Source of the DNA: a virus
DNA: 64,000 nt
IMG/VR virus record: IMGVR_UViG_3300042305_002533
Location: 1 to 64,000 of that record
Reading direction: 5' to 3' (one strand)
This document shows, piece by piece, positions 9,047-54,787 of this stretch. The position numbers were made by a program, and so were the translations under genes. The notes below the pieces were generated by a model. That model saw only the letters and a program-made list of their open reading frames with translations. It searched no databases and was not told the origin of the DNA. Every line of letters begins with the position of its first letter. Position 1 is the stretch's first letter.

Positions 9047-9057
9047 AGAAGGCTGGT

Positions 9058-9129
9058 CGGCTCACCGGGACTTGAACCCGGGACCCCCCGATTATAAGTC
9101 AGGAGCTCTGACCAACTGAGCTATGAGCC
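9058..9129 (-). tRNA. tRNA-Ile (anticodon UAU)
   Basis: Cloverleaf with acceptor GGCTCAT/GTGAGCC and anticodon loop CTTATAA on stem CCTGA/TCGGG, T-arm CCGGGTTCAAGTCCCGG. It reads AUA directly, whereas most bacteria use a lysidine-modified CAU tRNA. No encoded CCA. Confidence 0.92.
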
Positions 9130-9133
9130 GTGA

Positions 9134-9214
9134 TGCGAGCGGCGGGATTCGAACCCGCACGCCTTGCGGCAAGGGGTTTTAAGCCCCCGGCGTCTACCAT
9201 TCCGCCACGCTCGC
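9134..9214 (-). tRNA. tRNA-Leu (anticodon UAA)
   Basis: Acceptor GCGAGCG/CGCTCGC, anticodon loop CTTAAAA, a long variable arm typical of leucine tRNA and T-loop GGTTCGAATCC. No encoded CCA. Confidence 0.93.
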
Positions 9215-9218
9215 GAGG

Positions 9219-9289
9219 TTCAGGCGCTAGGATTCGAACCTAGATAGCGGGAACCAAAACCCCGCGTCCTGCCGTTAGACGACGCCTGA
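9219..9289 (-). tRNA. tRNA-Gln (anticodon UUG)
   Basis: Acceptor TCAGGCG/CGCCTGA, D-stem GTC/GAC, anticodon loop TTTTGGT, T-arm CTAGGTTCGAATCCTAG. No encoded CCA. Confidence 0.92.
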
Positions 9290-9290
9290 G

Positions 9291-9363
9291 TGGACCTGAC
9301 CGGGATCGAACCGGTGACATCCAGCTTGCAAAGCTGGCGCTCTCCCAACTGAGCTACAGGCCC
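9291..9363 (-). tRNA. tRNA-Ala (anticodon UGC)
   Basis: Acceptor GGGCCTG/CAGGTCC (one G-U pair), anticodon arm CCAGC-TTTGCAA-GCTGG, T-arm ACCGGTTCGATCCCGGT. Confidence 0.93.
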
Positions 9364-9370
9364 TGAAGAT

Positions 9371-9442
9371 TGCGCGGGACAGGGATCGAACCTGCGACCC
9401 GGAGTGTGTAAGACTCCTGCTCTGCCGCTGAGCTACCCGCGC
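9371..9442 (-). tRNA. tRNA-Val (anticodon UAC)
   Basis: Acceptor GCGCGGG/CCCGCGC, anticodon arm GGAGT-CTTACAC-ACTCC, T-arm GCAGGTTCGATCCCTGT. Confidence 0.93.
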
Positions 9443-9445
9443 GAA

Positions 9446-9517
9446 AGCTGATGATGGGATTCGAACCCGCAACCGCCGGTTTACAAAACCGGTGCTCTGC
9501 CGTTGAGCTACATCAGC
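9446..9517 (-). tRNA. tRNA-Thr (anticodon UGU)
   Basis: Acceptor GCTGATG/CATCAGC, anticodon arm CCGGT-TTTGTAA-ACCGG, T-arm GCGGGTTCGAATCCCAT. Confidence 0.93.
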
Positions 9518-9578
9518 AAACCTCGTAGTTGCCATCGTACGAGGCGCGACGACTTCTCTCCTCTCCCGAGGGGGGCAA

Positions 9579-9652
9579 TCAAGGCGGCAGGATTTGAACC
9601 TGCGACATCCAGCTCCCAAAGCTGGCGCACTACCAGACTGTGCTACGCCCTG
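9579..9652 (-). tRNA. tRNA-Pro (anticodon UGG)
   Basis: Acceptor CAGGGCG/CGCCTTG (one G-U pair), anticodon arm CCAGC-TTTGGGA-GCTGG, T-arm GCAGGTTCAAATCCTGC. Its first ten bases overlap the stop end of the small gene 9643-9822. Confidence 0.92.
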
Positions 9653-9822
9653 GTCTTTATGGCGTCTCGGAGCGCGGCATGCACCGCGTCAAGCCGCGCG
9701 ATATCTCCATCCGAAAGAGTCAAGGAAAGCGCCTCTCGGTATGCCAGGAAAAGGTCTGCGACAGATCGTCGCGCTGTCTCTTGCGGCCGATCAATCGGCG
9801 CGCCATTTGCGTCCCAAGCCAT
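9643..9822 (-). CDS. Small helical protein inside the tRNA cluster (59 aa)
   Basis: 59 residues from ATG 9822 with a GGAGAGTTG ribosome site: MAWDANGAPIDRPQETARRS, then two helices ending AALRDAIKTRA. The last codons and the TAG stop lie within the 5' end of tRNA-Pro, so the messenger and the tRNA share about ten bases and cannot both mature from one transcript. An in-frame upstream extension would run through two tRNA genes and was rejected. Function unknown. Confidence 0.6.
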   Translation of the reverse strand: MAWDANGAPIDRPQETARRSVADLFLAYREALSLTLSDGDIARLDAVHAALRDAIKTRA

Positions 9823-9833
9823 CAACTCTCCAG

Positions 9834-9914
9834 TGCGAGCGAGAGGACTTGAACCTCCACACCTTGCGATACCAGATCCTAAGTCTGGCGCGTCTGCCAT
9901 TCCGCCACGCTCGC
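9834..9914 (-). tRNA. tRNA-Leu (anticodon UAG)
   Basis: Acceptor GCGAGCG/CGCTCGC, anticodon arm CCAGA-CTTAGGA-TCTGG, long variable arm, T-loop GGTTCAAGTCC. The acceptor is identical to that of the other leucine tRNA, suggesting duplication and anticodon divergence. Confidence 0.93.
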
Positions 9915-9995
9915 TAAGTGCCCCGATTCGGTCTGCGCTCGGGGCCCCACGCATTTTGTCAGAGAGGTGAGGGGGAGGCACGTCTCTGCGACCGA

Positions 9996-10068
9996 TGGGT
10001 CGTCCGGGACTTGAACCCGGAGCCAACGGATTAAAAGTCCGCTGCTCTACCAATTGAGCTAACGACCC
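9996..10068 (-). tRNA. tRNA-Lys (anticodon UUU)
   Basis: Acceptor GGGTCGT/ACGACCC, anticodon loop CTTTTAA on stem GCGGA/TCCGT, T-arm CCGGGTTCAAGTCCCGG. First tRNA in the direction of transcription. Confidence 0.93.
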
Positions 10069-17913: not shown

Positions 17914-17974
17914 GGTGCACTCCGTACAACCCCTTCCCCCGGGGCGGGGTAACCACACATTGTGGCTACATATC

Positions 17975-18005
17975 CTTATACCCGGAAACACCCCCATTTT
18001 TTGAC
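17975..18005 (-). promoter_or_regulatory. Phage promoter-like element
   Basis: GTCAAA (18000-18005), 19 nt, then CGGGTATAAG with TATAAG at 17975-17980; upstream of gene 17449-17913. Member of an eight-copy family. Confidence 0.65.
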
Positions 18006-50852: not shown

Positions 50853-51536
50853 ATGTCTGCCATCGCGGTCCTTAAAGACCCTCAAGTTCTCCCGTCTGTA
50901 GCCTGGGCTGCGACCAAAAAACTGTTCGGGCCCTCGGTCGCCGCATGGGAGTTTGAGACCATTCGTCTTGAGCTCCAGCGCCGAGGTGTTGAGGTTGACG
51001 AGAGTCTCGCCGCCAAGATCTTCGGGGCCATGACCATCGAGATCACCAACGACTGGACCTTCGACCACGACGTGCTCTTTGCCTTCGCGCTCTCCTGCTG
51101 CGGGGTGCCAAGCAGCGGCGACGGCATTCACCACCCCACGCCGGAGCAGCTCTGTTGGGCGATTCACGACATCCACGCCATCACCGGGAAGCCCATTACG
51201 GACGACGAGGGGTTTGACCCTGACACCATCGACCCGGCAATCGGGGTTCTGCTCCACGATGACGGTTACGTCGTCACGCCCGATGAGCTCTCCTTCGCGC
51301 AAGACGCGCTCGACAAGATCAATCGTTACGGCGCCCTGAATGACATCAAAAAAGAAGTGCAGGACGCCTGGAAGGTCGTATCGAAGCTGCCCGTAGACAG
51401 CCTCAAAAAGCACCTCAGCGAACTTGATGACGAGCCTGCCGAGATCCAGATTCGACGCCTGGGCGACTGCCGGTTATATGTAGCAGAGCGCCAACTGCGT
51501 CGAGCCAAACAACATGCCCTCCTTAACGAGCAATGA
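50853..51536 (+). CDS. Hypothetical protein upstream of the terminase
   Basis: 227 residues, helical, with acidic C-terminal part. It immediately precedes and overlaps the large terminase gene, the usual place of a small terminase, but I see no convincing N-terminal DNA-binding helix-turn-helix. It could also be a head-assembly protein. Function unknown. Confidence 0.55.
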   Translation: MSAIAVLKDPQVLPSVAWAATKKLFGPSVAAWEFETIRLELQRRGVEVDESLAAKIFGAMTIEITNDWTFDHDVLFAFALSCCGVPSSGDGIHHPTPEQLCWAIHDIHAITGKPITDDEGFDPDTIDPAIGVLLHDDGYVVTPDELSFAQDALDKINRYGALNDIKKEVQDAWKVVSKLPVDSLKKHLSELDDEPAEIQIRRLGDCRLYVAERQLRRAKQHALLNEQ

Positions 51537-53157
51537 CGGCGCAGAACTTCGCCGTACCCGATCTGAGCTAGCCCGCGCCCTCCTTCGGATCGACGGTAAG
51601 CCTGTCAACCTCGATGACTACCCGATGTTCCTCGCCATCTACGATGGCGGGTACAAGCGGACTCTCTTGAAGACCTCCCGACAGGTGGGCAAGTCGACGA
51701 CCCTCTCAAACTTCTCCGTCGCTGAGTCTATCGCCGAGCCGCACTTCAAGACCTTCTTCATCTCACCCTCGCAGGAGCAGACGCACAAGTTCTCAACGGA
51801 GCGCGTCGGCAAGACGATCATGTACTCGCCCCTGGTGAAGAAGCACTTCATCGGAGACTCCGCGAGTAACCGCGTCATGGTGCGCTCTTTCAAGCGCGGG
51901 TCTACGATCTATTTCAGTTATGCCGAAGACGACGCCGACCGTTGTCGCGGTATCACGGCTGACCGCTTGTGCCTCGATGAGGTGCAGGACATCAACCTCG
52001 AAGCCGTAATCCCCGTCGTCAAAGAGACCATCGCCAACTCGGAGTACGCGTACGAGATGTACTGCGGCACGCCGAAGACGATGGAAAATGGCATCGAGAT
52101 CATGTGGAAGTCGTCCACCAAGAGTGAGTGGGCGATGAAGTGCGAGGGCTGCAGTCGCTTCTCGGTAATCGTGAGCGAAACGCAGCTTGGTAAAGAGGGG
52201 CCGATTTGCACCAAGTGCGGCAAAGGGCTGAACCCCCGCTTCGGCGTGTGGATCGACACCAACCGGGAAGTCGACGCCAAGACCAAGGGCTTTCACATCT
52301 CCCGCGCCATCATGCCGAAATCGGTGCCGATCTGTTGGCCCGAAGGTCCGCAACGTGAGAAGGCCAAAGAAAAATGGGCCGAGGTCCTCGACAAGCTGGA
52401 AGGCCCGGGGGCCTACCCGCTGTCGATGTTCCGCAACGAAGTTCTGGGCATCAGCGACTCCGAAGGCGTACGCCTTCTGACAAAAGAAGACCTCGACACC
52501 ATGTGCGACGGCCCGGACATCTCGCCCGTGCCGACGCACCAGAACATGGCGGACGTGTCAAAAGTCTCTGCGGGATTTGACTGGTCCGGGGGCGGCACGG
52601 AAATAAAGTCGCGCACTGTACTGACCATCCAGGGGCAGCTGACCAACGGCCGGATCAGGATTTTGTATTTCAAGATCTTCCCCGGGACCTCACCCCTCGA
52701 AGAGCTGAATGAGATAACACAAATTGTAAAAAACTATGACACGCGCTTCCCGATGTTCATGGGCGGTGACGCCGGCGAAGGCAACATGAACATGGACTCG
52801 CTGCGGAACCGATTTCAGAAGCCCCAGCGGATTCTGAAGATCCGCTACGTCGGCACGCAGAATACGTACGTGCAGTGGAACTCCGTCGGCGGCTTTTACA
52901 CGTTGCACCGAACGCCCGCGATTGACTCAATGATGACCAACTTGAAGATGGGGAAGTACCAGTTCCCCGCAAACAAGAAGGTCATGGACGTGGCGTTCAA
53001 CGACATCTTGAACGAGCACGTCGAAGTAACGACGCAGGGGCGGAAGCGCTGGGATCACGCGTCCAATAAGCCCGATGACTTTTTGCACGCACTCGTGTTT
53101 GGCCGTTTGGCGCTTCAGGTGAGCACCGGCGAGCTGAACCTGGGGAGTGCGTTTTAG
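51514..53157 (+). CDS. Terminase large subunit with zinc-finger insertion
   Basis: 547 residues. ATPase: Walker A TSRQVGKST (54-62) and Walker B LCLDEVQDI (D155-E156). Nuclease: first acidic residue D356 in GFDWSGGG and a late HASNKPDDFLHAL. Between the two domains, C210-x2-C213 and C232-x2-C235 form a zinc ribbon, present in some terminases. It pumps DNA into the prohead and cuts concatemers. The hairpin after the stop carries its U tract on the opposite strand, so it ends the minus-strand RNA and not this gene. Confidence 0.95.
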   Translation: MPSLTSNDGAELRRTRSELARALLRIDGKPVNLDDYPMFLAIYDGGYKRTLLKTSRQVGKSTTLSNFSVAESIAEPHFKTFFISPSQEQTHKFSTERVGKTIMYSPLVKKHFIGDSASNRVMVRSFKRGSTIYFSYAEDDADRCRGITADRLCLDEVQDINLEAVIPVVKETIANSEYAYEMYCGTPKTMENGIEIMWKSSTKSEWAMKCEGCSRFSVIVSETQLGKEGPICTKCGKGLNPRFGVWIDTNREVDAKTKGFHISRAIMPKSVPICWPEGPQREKAKEKWAEVLDKLEGPGAYPLSMFRNEVLGISDSEGVRLLTKEDLDTMCDGPDISPVPTHQNMADVSKVSAGFDWSGGGTEIKSRTVLTIQGQLTNGRIRILYFKIFPGTSPLEELNEITQIVKNYDTRFPMFMGGDAGEGNMNMDSLRNRFQKPQRILKIRYVGTQNTYVQWNSVGGFYTLHRTPAIDSMMTNLKMGKYQFPANKKVMDVAFNDILNEHVEVTTQGRKRWDHASNKPDDFLHALVFGRLALQVSTGELNLGSAF

Positions 53158-53159
53158 CC

Positions 53160-53190
53160 AAAAAAACACGCAGCGTTTTACCGCTGCGTG
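53160..53190 (-). terminator. Terminator of the minus-strand small RNA
   Basis: Perfect 9-bp stem CACGCAGCG/CGCTGCGTG (53167-53175 with 53182-53190), then seven U on the minus strand; on the plus strand the hairpin is followed by CCTCCC. Confidence 0.9.
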
Positions 53191-53338
53191 CCTCCCAGGC
53201 TTCTCGCCTTACCTGGAATGGCGGCTATCTTATGGGGGCAAGGCCCGAGAGATATTGCTTCGACAGGCAATCCCAGAACGATTAAATCGCCGGGCGGTCT
53301 CTGCGTGGTGACTCTCGGGGTTTGACCACACTTGAAGG
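53160..53338 (-). ncRNA. Candidate structured small RNA
   Basis: About 180 nt bounded by a promoter-like element (-10 at 53346-53351) and an intrinsic terminator. No convincing ORF or ribosome site lies between. The RNA can form an 8-bp closing stem (53312-53319 with 53244-53251, CCCGAGAG/CTCTCGGG) enclosing a CGAT-tta-ATCG hairpin and an ATTGC/GCAAT hairpin (53254-53258 with 53267-53271). A CCAGG/CCTGG hairpin (53193-53217) precedes the terminator stem. It is convergent with the terminase. It could be regulatory, antisense or a packaging RNA; none is shown. Confidence 0.6.
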
Positions 53339-53345
53339 TCAAGTT

Positions 53346-53376
53346 CTTATACCAGAAAAGGCCCTGCCTTTTGGCC
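53346..53376 (-). promoter_or_regulatory. Phage promoter-like element for the small RNA
   Basis: GGCCAAAA (from 53376), 18-19 nt, then CTGGTATAAG with TATAAG at 53346-53351. The upstream box overlaps the tail of the preceding terminator repeat. Confidence 0.65.
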
Positions 53377-53440
53377 AAAAGAAACCGCCCCCTTGGACGC
53401 GCCGAACGGCGCAGGGCGGTGCCTCCAGGACGGAGGGCTT
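53369..53440 (-). repeat. Terminator-promoter repeat R1
   Basis: 72-bp repeat, 71 of 72 bases identical to 53804-53875. Contains the terminator of the gene at 53439-53774 and the -35-like box of the next unit. Confidence 0.9.
53377..53420 (-). terminator. Intrinsic terminator of gene 53439-53774
   Basis: Outer stem ACCGCCC/GGGCGGT (53384-53390 with 53414-53420), inner stem GCGCC/GGCGC with GAAC loop, then TTTCTTTT on the minus strand. Confidence 0.85.
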
Positions 53441-53774
53441 ACAAGGACCGAAGCCAGCCCTTGAGGTACGCGGCGTACTCCGGCCGCGCGCAGATGCGGG
53501 ACGCCTTCACGTCCCGCGAGAAAACCGCCGCCAGCGGCTTGAGCGCCTCTTGCGGCAGAAGAGCGGCCGCCGCCGCCCGGTACTCCTCCGGGTGGGCTTC
53601 CACCCAGAGGAGGTCGGGGTCCGAAGAGTCGAACCCCTCCCCGCCATGCTGGGGCACACCCATCATGGTGAGGCTGTGCGCCAACCGGGTCCATTCCCGA
53701 TTGGCGGTGAACTCCTCGACGTCCTTCCGGAAGTCGAGGAGCCATGCGTTAACGCCGTCAGGCATAGCGATCAT
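53439..53774 (-). CDS. Hypothetical protein (111 aa), mini-unit A
   Basis: 111 residues: MIAMPDGVNAWLLDFRKDVE, a helical, acidic protein ending YAAYLKGWLRSL. The ATG lies 5 nt after a TATAAG box and has no ribosome site, which suggests a leaderless message. It has its own promoter-like element and terminator. Not recognised. Confidence 0.65.
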   Translation of the reverse strand: MIAMPDGVNAWLLDFRKDVEEFTANREWTRLAHSLTMMGVPQHGGEGFDSSDPDLLWVEAHPEEYRAAAAALLPQEALKPLAAVFSRDVKASRICARPEYAAYLKGWLRSL

Positions 53775-53810: not shown

Positions 53811-53875
53811 CAAAAGAAACCGCCCCTTTGGACGCGCCGAACGGCGCAGGGCGGTGCCTCCAGGACGGAGGGCTT
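53804..53875 (-). repeat. Terminator-promoter repeat R2
   Basis: 72-bp repeat differing from R1 at one base. Confidence 0.9.
53812..53855 (-). terminator. Intrinsic terminator of gene 53875-54342
   Basis: Same nested stem as R1 (53819-53825 with 53849-53855), followed by TTTCTTTT on the minus strand. Confidence 0.85.
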
Positions 53876-54342
53876 CAGACGTTTGCTGCCCGCTCGGCCT
53901 GCTCGGCCAGGCTCAGCAGCTCGGACCTGACGTAGGCGAGGTCTCTGTACTCCCCGCCCCATGACGGCGACTGCCCAGCGTCCCACGGCGGGGGCGCGTC
54001 CCCCATGTGGGCACAATCAAAGCCGACGGTGACGCCCCCGTCCCCGTCGGCTTCGAACTCGGCGTACGTGCACCCGCCGTGGGCCTCGATAGCCCAGAGC
54101 AGCCGGTTTTCGCACGGGGGGGCAGGCGCCCCGTCTTCGCCCGTGCAGGCCGCCTGGGCCCACGGGTGGGCCCGGGGCACGGTGATGTACCCGCACCAGT
54201 GCCCGCGGTAGCTCCGCCGGGCGCGCACCGGGAAGCCCCGGTAGACGGCCTCCACCAGGGAGACCTCCGGGCCATCGGCCCGGTCCAGGGCGTCGACGGG
54301 GTTGAGGTTGTTGTTCGTATCCCCAGAAACATGGGTGTCCAT
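53875..54342 (-). CDS. Conserved phage/bacterial protein (155 aa), mini-unit B
   Basis: 155 residues. YRGHWCGYITVPRAHPWAQA, then EAHGGCTYAEFEADGDGG, then VGFDCAHMGDAPP and YRDLAYVRSEL, match a widespread small family (C-G-Y-V-x-V-x-x-x-H-P ... H-G-G-x-T-Y ... G-F-D-C-A-H-x-x-D ... Y-R-x-x-x-Y-V-x-x-E) seen in many phages. Conserved Cys, His and Asp suggest an enzyme or metal site, but no function is known. ATG lies 5 nt after TATAAG without a ribosome site. Confidence 0.75.
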   Translation of the reverse strand: MDTHVSGDTNNNLNPVDALDRADGPEVSLVEAVYRGFPVRARRSYRGHWCGYITVPRAHPWAQAACTGEDGAPAPPCENRLLWAIEAHGGCTYAEFEADGDGGVTVGFDCAHMGDAPPPWDAGQSPSWGGEYRDLAYVRSELLSLAEQAERAANV

Positions 54343-54378: not shown

Positions 54379-54445
54379 CAAAAGAAACCACCCCGTTGGA
54401 CGCGCCGAACGGCGCGGGGTGGTAGATCCAACTCAGGACGGGTTA
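54372..54445 (-). repeat. Terminator-promoter repeat R3 (diverged)
   Basis: About 74 bp, same layout as R1 and R2. The outer stem reads ACCACCCC/GGGGTGGT, so both arms changed together and pairing is kept. Confidence 0.8.
54379..54423 (-). terminator. Intrinsic terminator of gene 54443-54787
   Basis: Outer stem 54387-54394 with 54416-54423, inner GCGCC/GGCGC, then TTTCTTTTGG on the minus strand. Confidence 0.85.
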
Positions 54446-54787
54446 GATCTTCTCCAGGACGGCCAGGCCCCAACCGGGGTAGGCCTCCGTCTGGAGGGTG
54501 ACGTCCGCGAGGGGCACCGGGCGCCCCTCGCGGACTGCCGTTGCGATCTCCTCAGGCGTGGCGTCGTCGTAGACGCTCACGTCGAGGCGACCGTCGGACA
54601 GCCGCATGACCGAGGCACAGCCCCGGATGGTGCGGCGACCGATGACGAGCACCTTGCTGCCCTTGGCAGTCAAGGCTGCTCGCCACCTCTGGTGGGACGG
54701 GACTGTTTCGGCGGTATGCCCGCCGCCCCAGATCCCGTCCCACCATCGGTCTGCGACCGTGAATTTGGAGGCATCAAAGTGGTCCAT
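54443..54787 (-). CDS. Hypothetical protein (114 aa), mini-unit C
   Basis: 114 residues with an aromatic N-terminus (FTVADRWWDGIWGGGHTAET) and a beta-rich, acidic C-terminal half. AAGGAGGT lies directly against the ATG, too close for a normal ribosome site; the same bases follow the TATAAG box, so initiation may be leaderless. Not recognised. Confidence 0.65.
   Translation of the reverse strand: MDHFDASKFTVADRWWDGIWGGGHTAETVPSHQRWRAALTAKGSKVLVIGRRTIRGCASVMRLSDGRLDVSVYDDATPEEIATAVREGRPVPLADVTLQTEAYPGWGLAVLEKI

Follow-up and report, generated by a model that had tools for sequence, protein, structure and literature searches.

What is encoded in the short stretch of DNA beside the terminase gene of this virus, between a promoter-like element and a terminator? 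An earlier note on this locus had proposed a structured small RNA that might act in packaging, in regulation or on the host. We analysed the locus within a window of 64,000 nt (the whole stretch of DNA studied), which is part of G000, a virus record of 130,678 bases, and compared it with relatives. We conclude that the ORF-free transcription unit is genuine.

An ORF-free transcription unit convergent with the terminase gene

The unit lies on the minus strand. Between 53372 and 53160 the order on that strand is an A-tract, the promoter core GGTATAAG, about 180 nt without an ATG, and a terminator. The features of the unit and its neighbours are as follows.

53369..53372, minus strand: A-tract (AAAA), upstream of the promoter
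53346..53353, minus strand: promoter core GGTATAAG
53160..53340, minus strand: predicted non-coding transcript of ~180 nt, with +1 placed at G53340 by analogy with the leaderless units
53324..53340, minus strand: 5' hairpin at +1, GACC-uucaagugu-GGUC; its motif CAA(n0-3)GUGUGG is common to the leaders at 17969 and 4205 (minus strand)
53312..53319, minus strand: 5' arm of a long-range 8-bp stem (CCCGAGAG), not above chance
53244..53251, minus strand: 3' arm of the long-range 8-bp stem (CTCTCGGG)
53160..53190, minus strand: intrinsic terminator CACGCAGCG-gtaaaa-CGCTGCGTG, then T7
51514..53157, plus strand: terminase large subunit, convergent with the RNA unit (phrog_675, E 7e-53)
53439..53774, minus strand: mini-unit 1, predicted leaderless gene of 111 aa, GGGTATAAGACAGTATG; no Pfam or PHROG match
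53875..54342, minus strand: mini-unit 2, predicted leaderless gene of 155 aa; phrog_2164 (unknown function)
54443..54787, minus strand: mini-unit 3, predicted leaderless gene of 114 aa; no Pfam or PHROG match

The strong terminator claimed earlier is confirmed: a near-perfect stem of 9-11 bp is followed by T7 on the minus strand, and the end of the T-run (53160) is 2 nt from the terminase stop codon. The interval first given for the RNA, 53160-53338, is right to within a few bases (~53340 to 53160). The unit is also, as had been noted, the fourth member of a series, an array of promoter-gene-terminator units whose boundaries are direct repeats. Elsewhere in the window, nine tRNA genes form a cluster at 9054-10068 (minus strand).

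The claim that the unit lacks a convincing ORF held up as well. Codon scores revealed no coding-like frame on either strand; the best of the six frames scored -0.25 per codon, below the lowest of 308 true-gene pieces (-0.142).

A strand-biased promoter family

The family consensus is an A-tract, then 13-16 nt, then GGGTATAAG; at the family sites in G000, A4-A7 stands 13-16 nt before GG(G)TATAAG. The core GGTATAAG occurs six times in the window compared with 0.41 expected, a 15-fold enrichment. All copies are on the minus strand, and the mini-unit array holds four of the six. In the whole record, family sites lie at about 4217, 17981, 53352, 53786, 54354, 54799 and 113535, each on the minus strand. 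This enrichment bears out the promoter-like element of the earlier note, which had left the strand unstated; it is the minus strand. A generic sigma-70 scan found no promoter at the RNA unit because the element is phage-specific.

Four sites show the exact spacing GGGTATAAG-N5-ATG: the three mini-units (~54793, 54348 and 53780, minus strand) and G000:113535 (minus strand). This spacing is likewise present in two relatives, L010 and L003. Because the ATG begins exactly six bases after TATAAG, the mRNAs of these four G000 units should be leaderless. By the same rule, +1 would be the sixth base at the RNA unit too, which puts its start at about G53340.

The motif and its strand bias extend beyond this virus. 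The two strands carry 30 and 1 copies of GGTATAAG in Salmonella phage Arash, the motif count is 10 versus 0 in a 168-kb relative (G006), and Vibrio phage D181 displays a weaker excess (7 versus 1); the motif is also found in L010 and L003. In G000, and likewise in G006 and Arash, the promoters are on the strand opposite the RNA polymerase and sigma genes and the terminase, and in four phages the family is oriented away from the terminase. Judged by its sequence, GG(G)TATAAG is a clade-wide promoter. G006 was located by a scan for the promoter followed by a leaderless ATG, which returned 92 stretches, mostly chance matches.

Which polymerase might use this promoter? G000 encodes a beta-beta' RNA polymerase fusion of 1992 aa (71667-77645, plus strand), a beta' C-terminal part (79901-81706, plus strand) and a sigma-70 region 2 protein (64388-65209, plus strand). 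It has the multisubunit polymerase genes expected with an early promoter of a virion polymerase, together with a conserved motif in a single orientation upstream of presumed early units. Among the proteins of the Arash virion, RNA polymerase beta gave the most spectra, and beta' and sigma are also present (PMC10585845). In jumbo phages that have such polymerases, presumed early operons are preceded by a conserved motif near -10 (PMC7598289). Taken together, the strand pattern of the promoters, the virion polymerase of Arash and the early motifs of jumbo phages suggest that GGGTATAAG probably serves an injected polymerase as its early promoter, and that the RNA, too, is probably early.

A small 5' hairpin, but no excess of structure

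Three family members (53352, 17981 and 4217, minus strand) have no ATG at +1, and all three begin with G. In each predicted transcript, a small hairpin lies at the 5' end or directly beside it, and all three contain CAA(n0-3)GUGUGG at +6 to +8. This motif is found five times in 130.7 kb, and three of these occurrences are at +6 to +8 of family promoters. The 5'-end pairing alone is modestly unusual (p 0.06, 0.16 and 0.01 for 53352, 17981 and 4217 respectively). The small +1 hairpin is the best RNA feature of the unit, and the shared sequence is stronger evidence for it than the pairing. At 17981 and 4217, but not at 53352, the hairpin is followed by a Shine-Dalgarno sequence and an ATG. A scan of viral contigs for the promoter plus the 5' hairpin motif gave two matches, both inside coding genes.

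The whole 179-nt RNA has z = -2.9, but this is due to the terminator. When the terminator is removed, the remaining body (53340-53194) scores z = -0.45 relative to shuffled sequence; 150 pieces drawn at random from the genome averaged -0.59, with a median close to the value of this body. For the core that includes the long-range stem, z was -1.55. Perfect stems of at least 8 bp arose in 13 of 150 shuffles (9%), so that the 8-bp stem described in the earlier note is not beyond chance. We therefore rejected excess secondary structure, which vanishes once the terminator is left out, and the description of the unit as a structured RNA is not supported: its body folds no better than shuffled sequence, and only the terminator and the small 5' hairpin stand out. 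No Rfam family reached its gathering score, and a relaxed search gave chance-level matches only.

The locus in relatives

Searches with the terminase found few relatives: L002 (89% identical), L003 (80%), G006 (47%), Arash (31%) and the fragments L004 and L005. A terminase search of genome contigs returned no matches. Searches of phage records, plasmids, viral contigs and Rfam found no homologue of the RNA body. Neither a conserved structure nor a conserved sequence was found for it in the relatives; the 17-nt 5' hairpin motif alone recurs, in two leaders of G000.

L002 has at the same place a promoter GGGTATAAAA, 61 nt without an ORF and a T7 terminator, whose distance from the terminase stop is almost that seen in G000. 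L003 and L010 probably represent a single phage sampled in one metagenome. Their mini-units are likewise leaderless and built in the same way; the RNA unit is absent and the gene content of the array is completely different. No sequence like the RNA was found in G006. At its junction (L124:14800-15310; G006:74800-75310), ~500 nt of non-coding DNA between the terminase and an exonuclease gene contains two copies, 174 nt apart, of the 22-nt repeat GGAGTCAGCGTAGNGCTGACAT. A second apparently ORF-poor unit in G006 (L115:2085-2340; G006:161550) consists of a promoter, a 5' hairpin, ~220 nt and a terminator, after which comes a gene without a promoter of the GGGTATAAG family. At L112:2452-2640 (G006:139000), a 170-nt leader with a 5' hairpin separates a promoter from an ORF that, by eye only, resembles a papain-like peptidase. 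None of the G006 junction, the G006 leaders at 161550 and 139000 and the L002 unit could be aligned with the window RNA. Homology with these leaders or with the L002 unit was rejected, as the alignment scores were within those of shuffled sequences.

Alternatives to a functional small RNA

Of the alternatives, a vestigial cassette deserves the most attention, and we hold it to be a real, if tentative, possibility. The slot would once have held a small gene, of which the promoter, leader hairpin and terminator remain; they would still yield an RNA, but its body would be without a function of its own. Selection might keep the terminator, which would halt minus-strand transcription before it enters the terminase gene in antisense. 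The short ORF-less unit of L002, the exchanged array genes of L003 and L010, and a body without excess fold are all consistent with this reading, as is the finding that the other two transcripts with the 5' hairpin are mRNA leaders with a Shine-Dalgarno sequence and an ORF. However, no frame retains a codon signal, which makes recent gene loss unlikely, and the promoter and terminator are intact. Moreover, ~130 nt without any use would tend to disappear from a genome as compact as that of a phage.

We consider it improbable that the stretch is a DNA element, such as a packaging site, an origin or a boundary between early and late operons, placed inside a promoter-terminator pair by chance. It is situated exactly at the convergent junction between replication genes and the terminase, and the same junction in G006 is non-coding and carries a repeat. 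However, there are no repeats within the element, similarity to the G006 junction is no more than borderline (p ~0.05), and the element is absent in L003.

A small protein is very unlikely. A leaderless frame of 54 codons (TTG53342-TAA53178) is open to the terminator, and the promoter family is predicted to make leaderless mRNAs. This start, however, is 2 nt off the family spacing. The minus-strand frame, open for 66 codons, has the codon usage of a wrong frame (-0.26 compared with +0.27, sd 0.11, for real genes), and its GC content by codon position is flat (0.57, 0.57, 0.59) where that of its neighbours reaches 0.83-0.88 at the third position. No relatives of the frame were found, including by tblastn. 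The protein was rejected on the codon statistics.

A packaging RNA is needed late. The analogy with phi29 pRNA, an RNA working with the adjacent terminase, has in its favour only the size (~180 nt) and the nearness to a packaging gene, and we dismiss it with near certainty: the neighbour is an ordinary large terminase (phrog_675) and not a phi29-type packaging ATPase, the unit is missing at the locus in L003 and not seen in G006, the promoters of this family point away from the terminase and the structural genes and presumably act early, which argues against such a role, and Rfam gave no match to phi29 pRNA even at E 10.

A model for the RNA unit

The explanation that we favour is an early, trans-acting non-coding small RNA of ~180 nt, to which we give about an even chance. 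It builds on the promoter family, the terminator, the lack of coding signal, the shared 5' hairpin and the encoded polymerase and sigma, all of them read from the sequence; a promoter and terminator of its own and the lack of an ORF are what is looked for in a phage small non-coding RNA. Observations in relatives count in its favour as well: they carry the same promoter motif, strand-biased in Arash and G006, a family promoter in Arash drives a tRNA, and G006 has its second ORF-poor unit at 161550. Against it, the body is without homologue, folds at chance level and is not conserved in L002 and L003.

The first part of our model concerns how the RNA would be made. We propose that the phage's own multisubunit RNA polymerase and sigma, probably injected with the DNA, recognize the A-tract and GGGTATAAG. 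Transcription would start at G53340, giving an RNA whose 5' end forms a small hairpin, and would stop at the strong intrinsic terminator that abuts the convergent terminase gene. The 5' hairpin and the terminator would be likely to protect both RNA ends.

The second part concerns what the RNA would do. It may act in trans during the take-over phase, in company with the three leaderless mini-genes; base pairing or protein binding would be the most likely mode of action. Its role may be regulatory or directed at the host, as the earlier note suggested. We considered whether it could be antisense to the mRNA of RNA polymerase beta', where a 14-nt match at 80082 was the only notable antisense match; this candidate is no more than a weak lead, because an equal match turned up in 65 of 400 shuffled RNAs.

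We also put forward, tentatively, a more specific proposal: from a dedicated early promoter the injected polymerase would make a small RNA capped by a hairpin, and this RNA would be one of the exchangeable cassettes in an array that otherwise holds leaderless take-over genes. If it is true, a slot for early cargo can hold RNA where others hold protein. Should the RNA be both transcribed and functional, a phage virion polymerase would have produced an early small RNA, in a group whose small RNAs have received little study. Better founded is the finding that the promoter GG(G)TATAAG is clade-wide and occurs in a cultured phage, Salmonella phage Arash.

Comparison with known systems

Phage-encoded trans-acting small RNAs (reviewed in PMC12197685) resemble this unit in being short, in having a promoter and terminator of their own and in lacking an ORF. 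The unit differs from them in that there is no homology and in that a phage virion polymerase probably transcribes it.

phiKZ and AR9 (PMC7598289) share with this virus a motif near -10 before presumed early units and a multisubunit phage RNA polymerase. They differ from it in that here the promoter is GGGTATAAG with an A-tract, the sigma-70 region 2 protein is recognizable and the genomes are ~130-187 kb.

Arash (OQ632216; PMC10585845) is alike in its terminase, RNA polymerase and sigma and in its 30 GGTATAAG sites facing away from the terminase. At most of these sites (loci L151-L172), TGTAA and a Shine-Dalgarno leader come next, and the leaders at L161:611 and L165:603 contain terminator-like hairpins just after the start. 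The Arash paper does not mention promoters (PMC10585845). Unlike the mini-units, the Arash promoters have Shine-Dalgarno leaders of ~25 nt and not leaderless starts, and no ORF-less unit was seen there except a tRNA, which is driven by one promoter of the family (L158). With these promoter copies in Arash, a laboratory phage offers a direct way to test start sites, timing and small RNAs.
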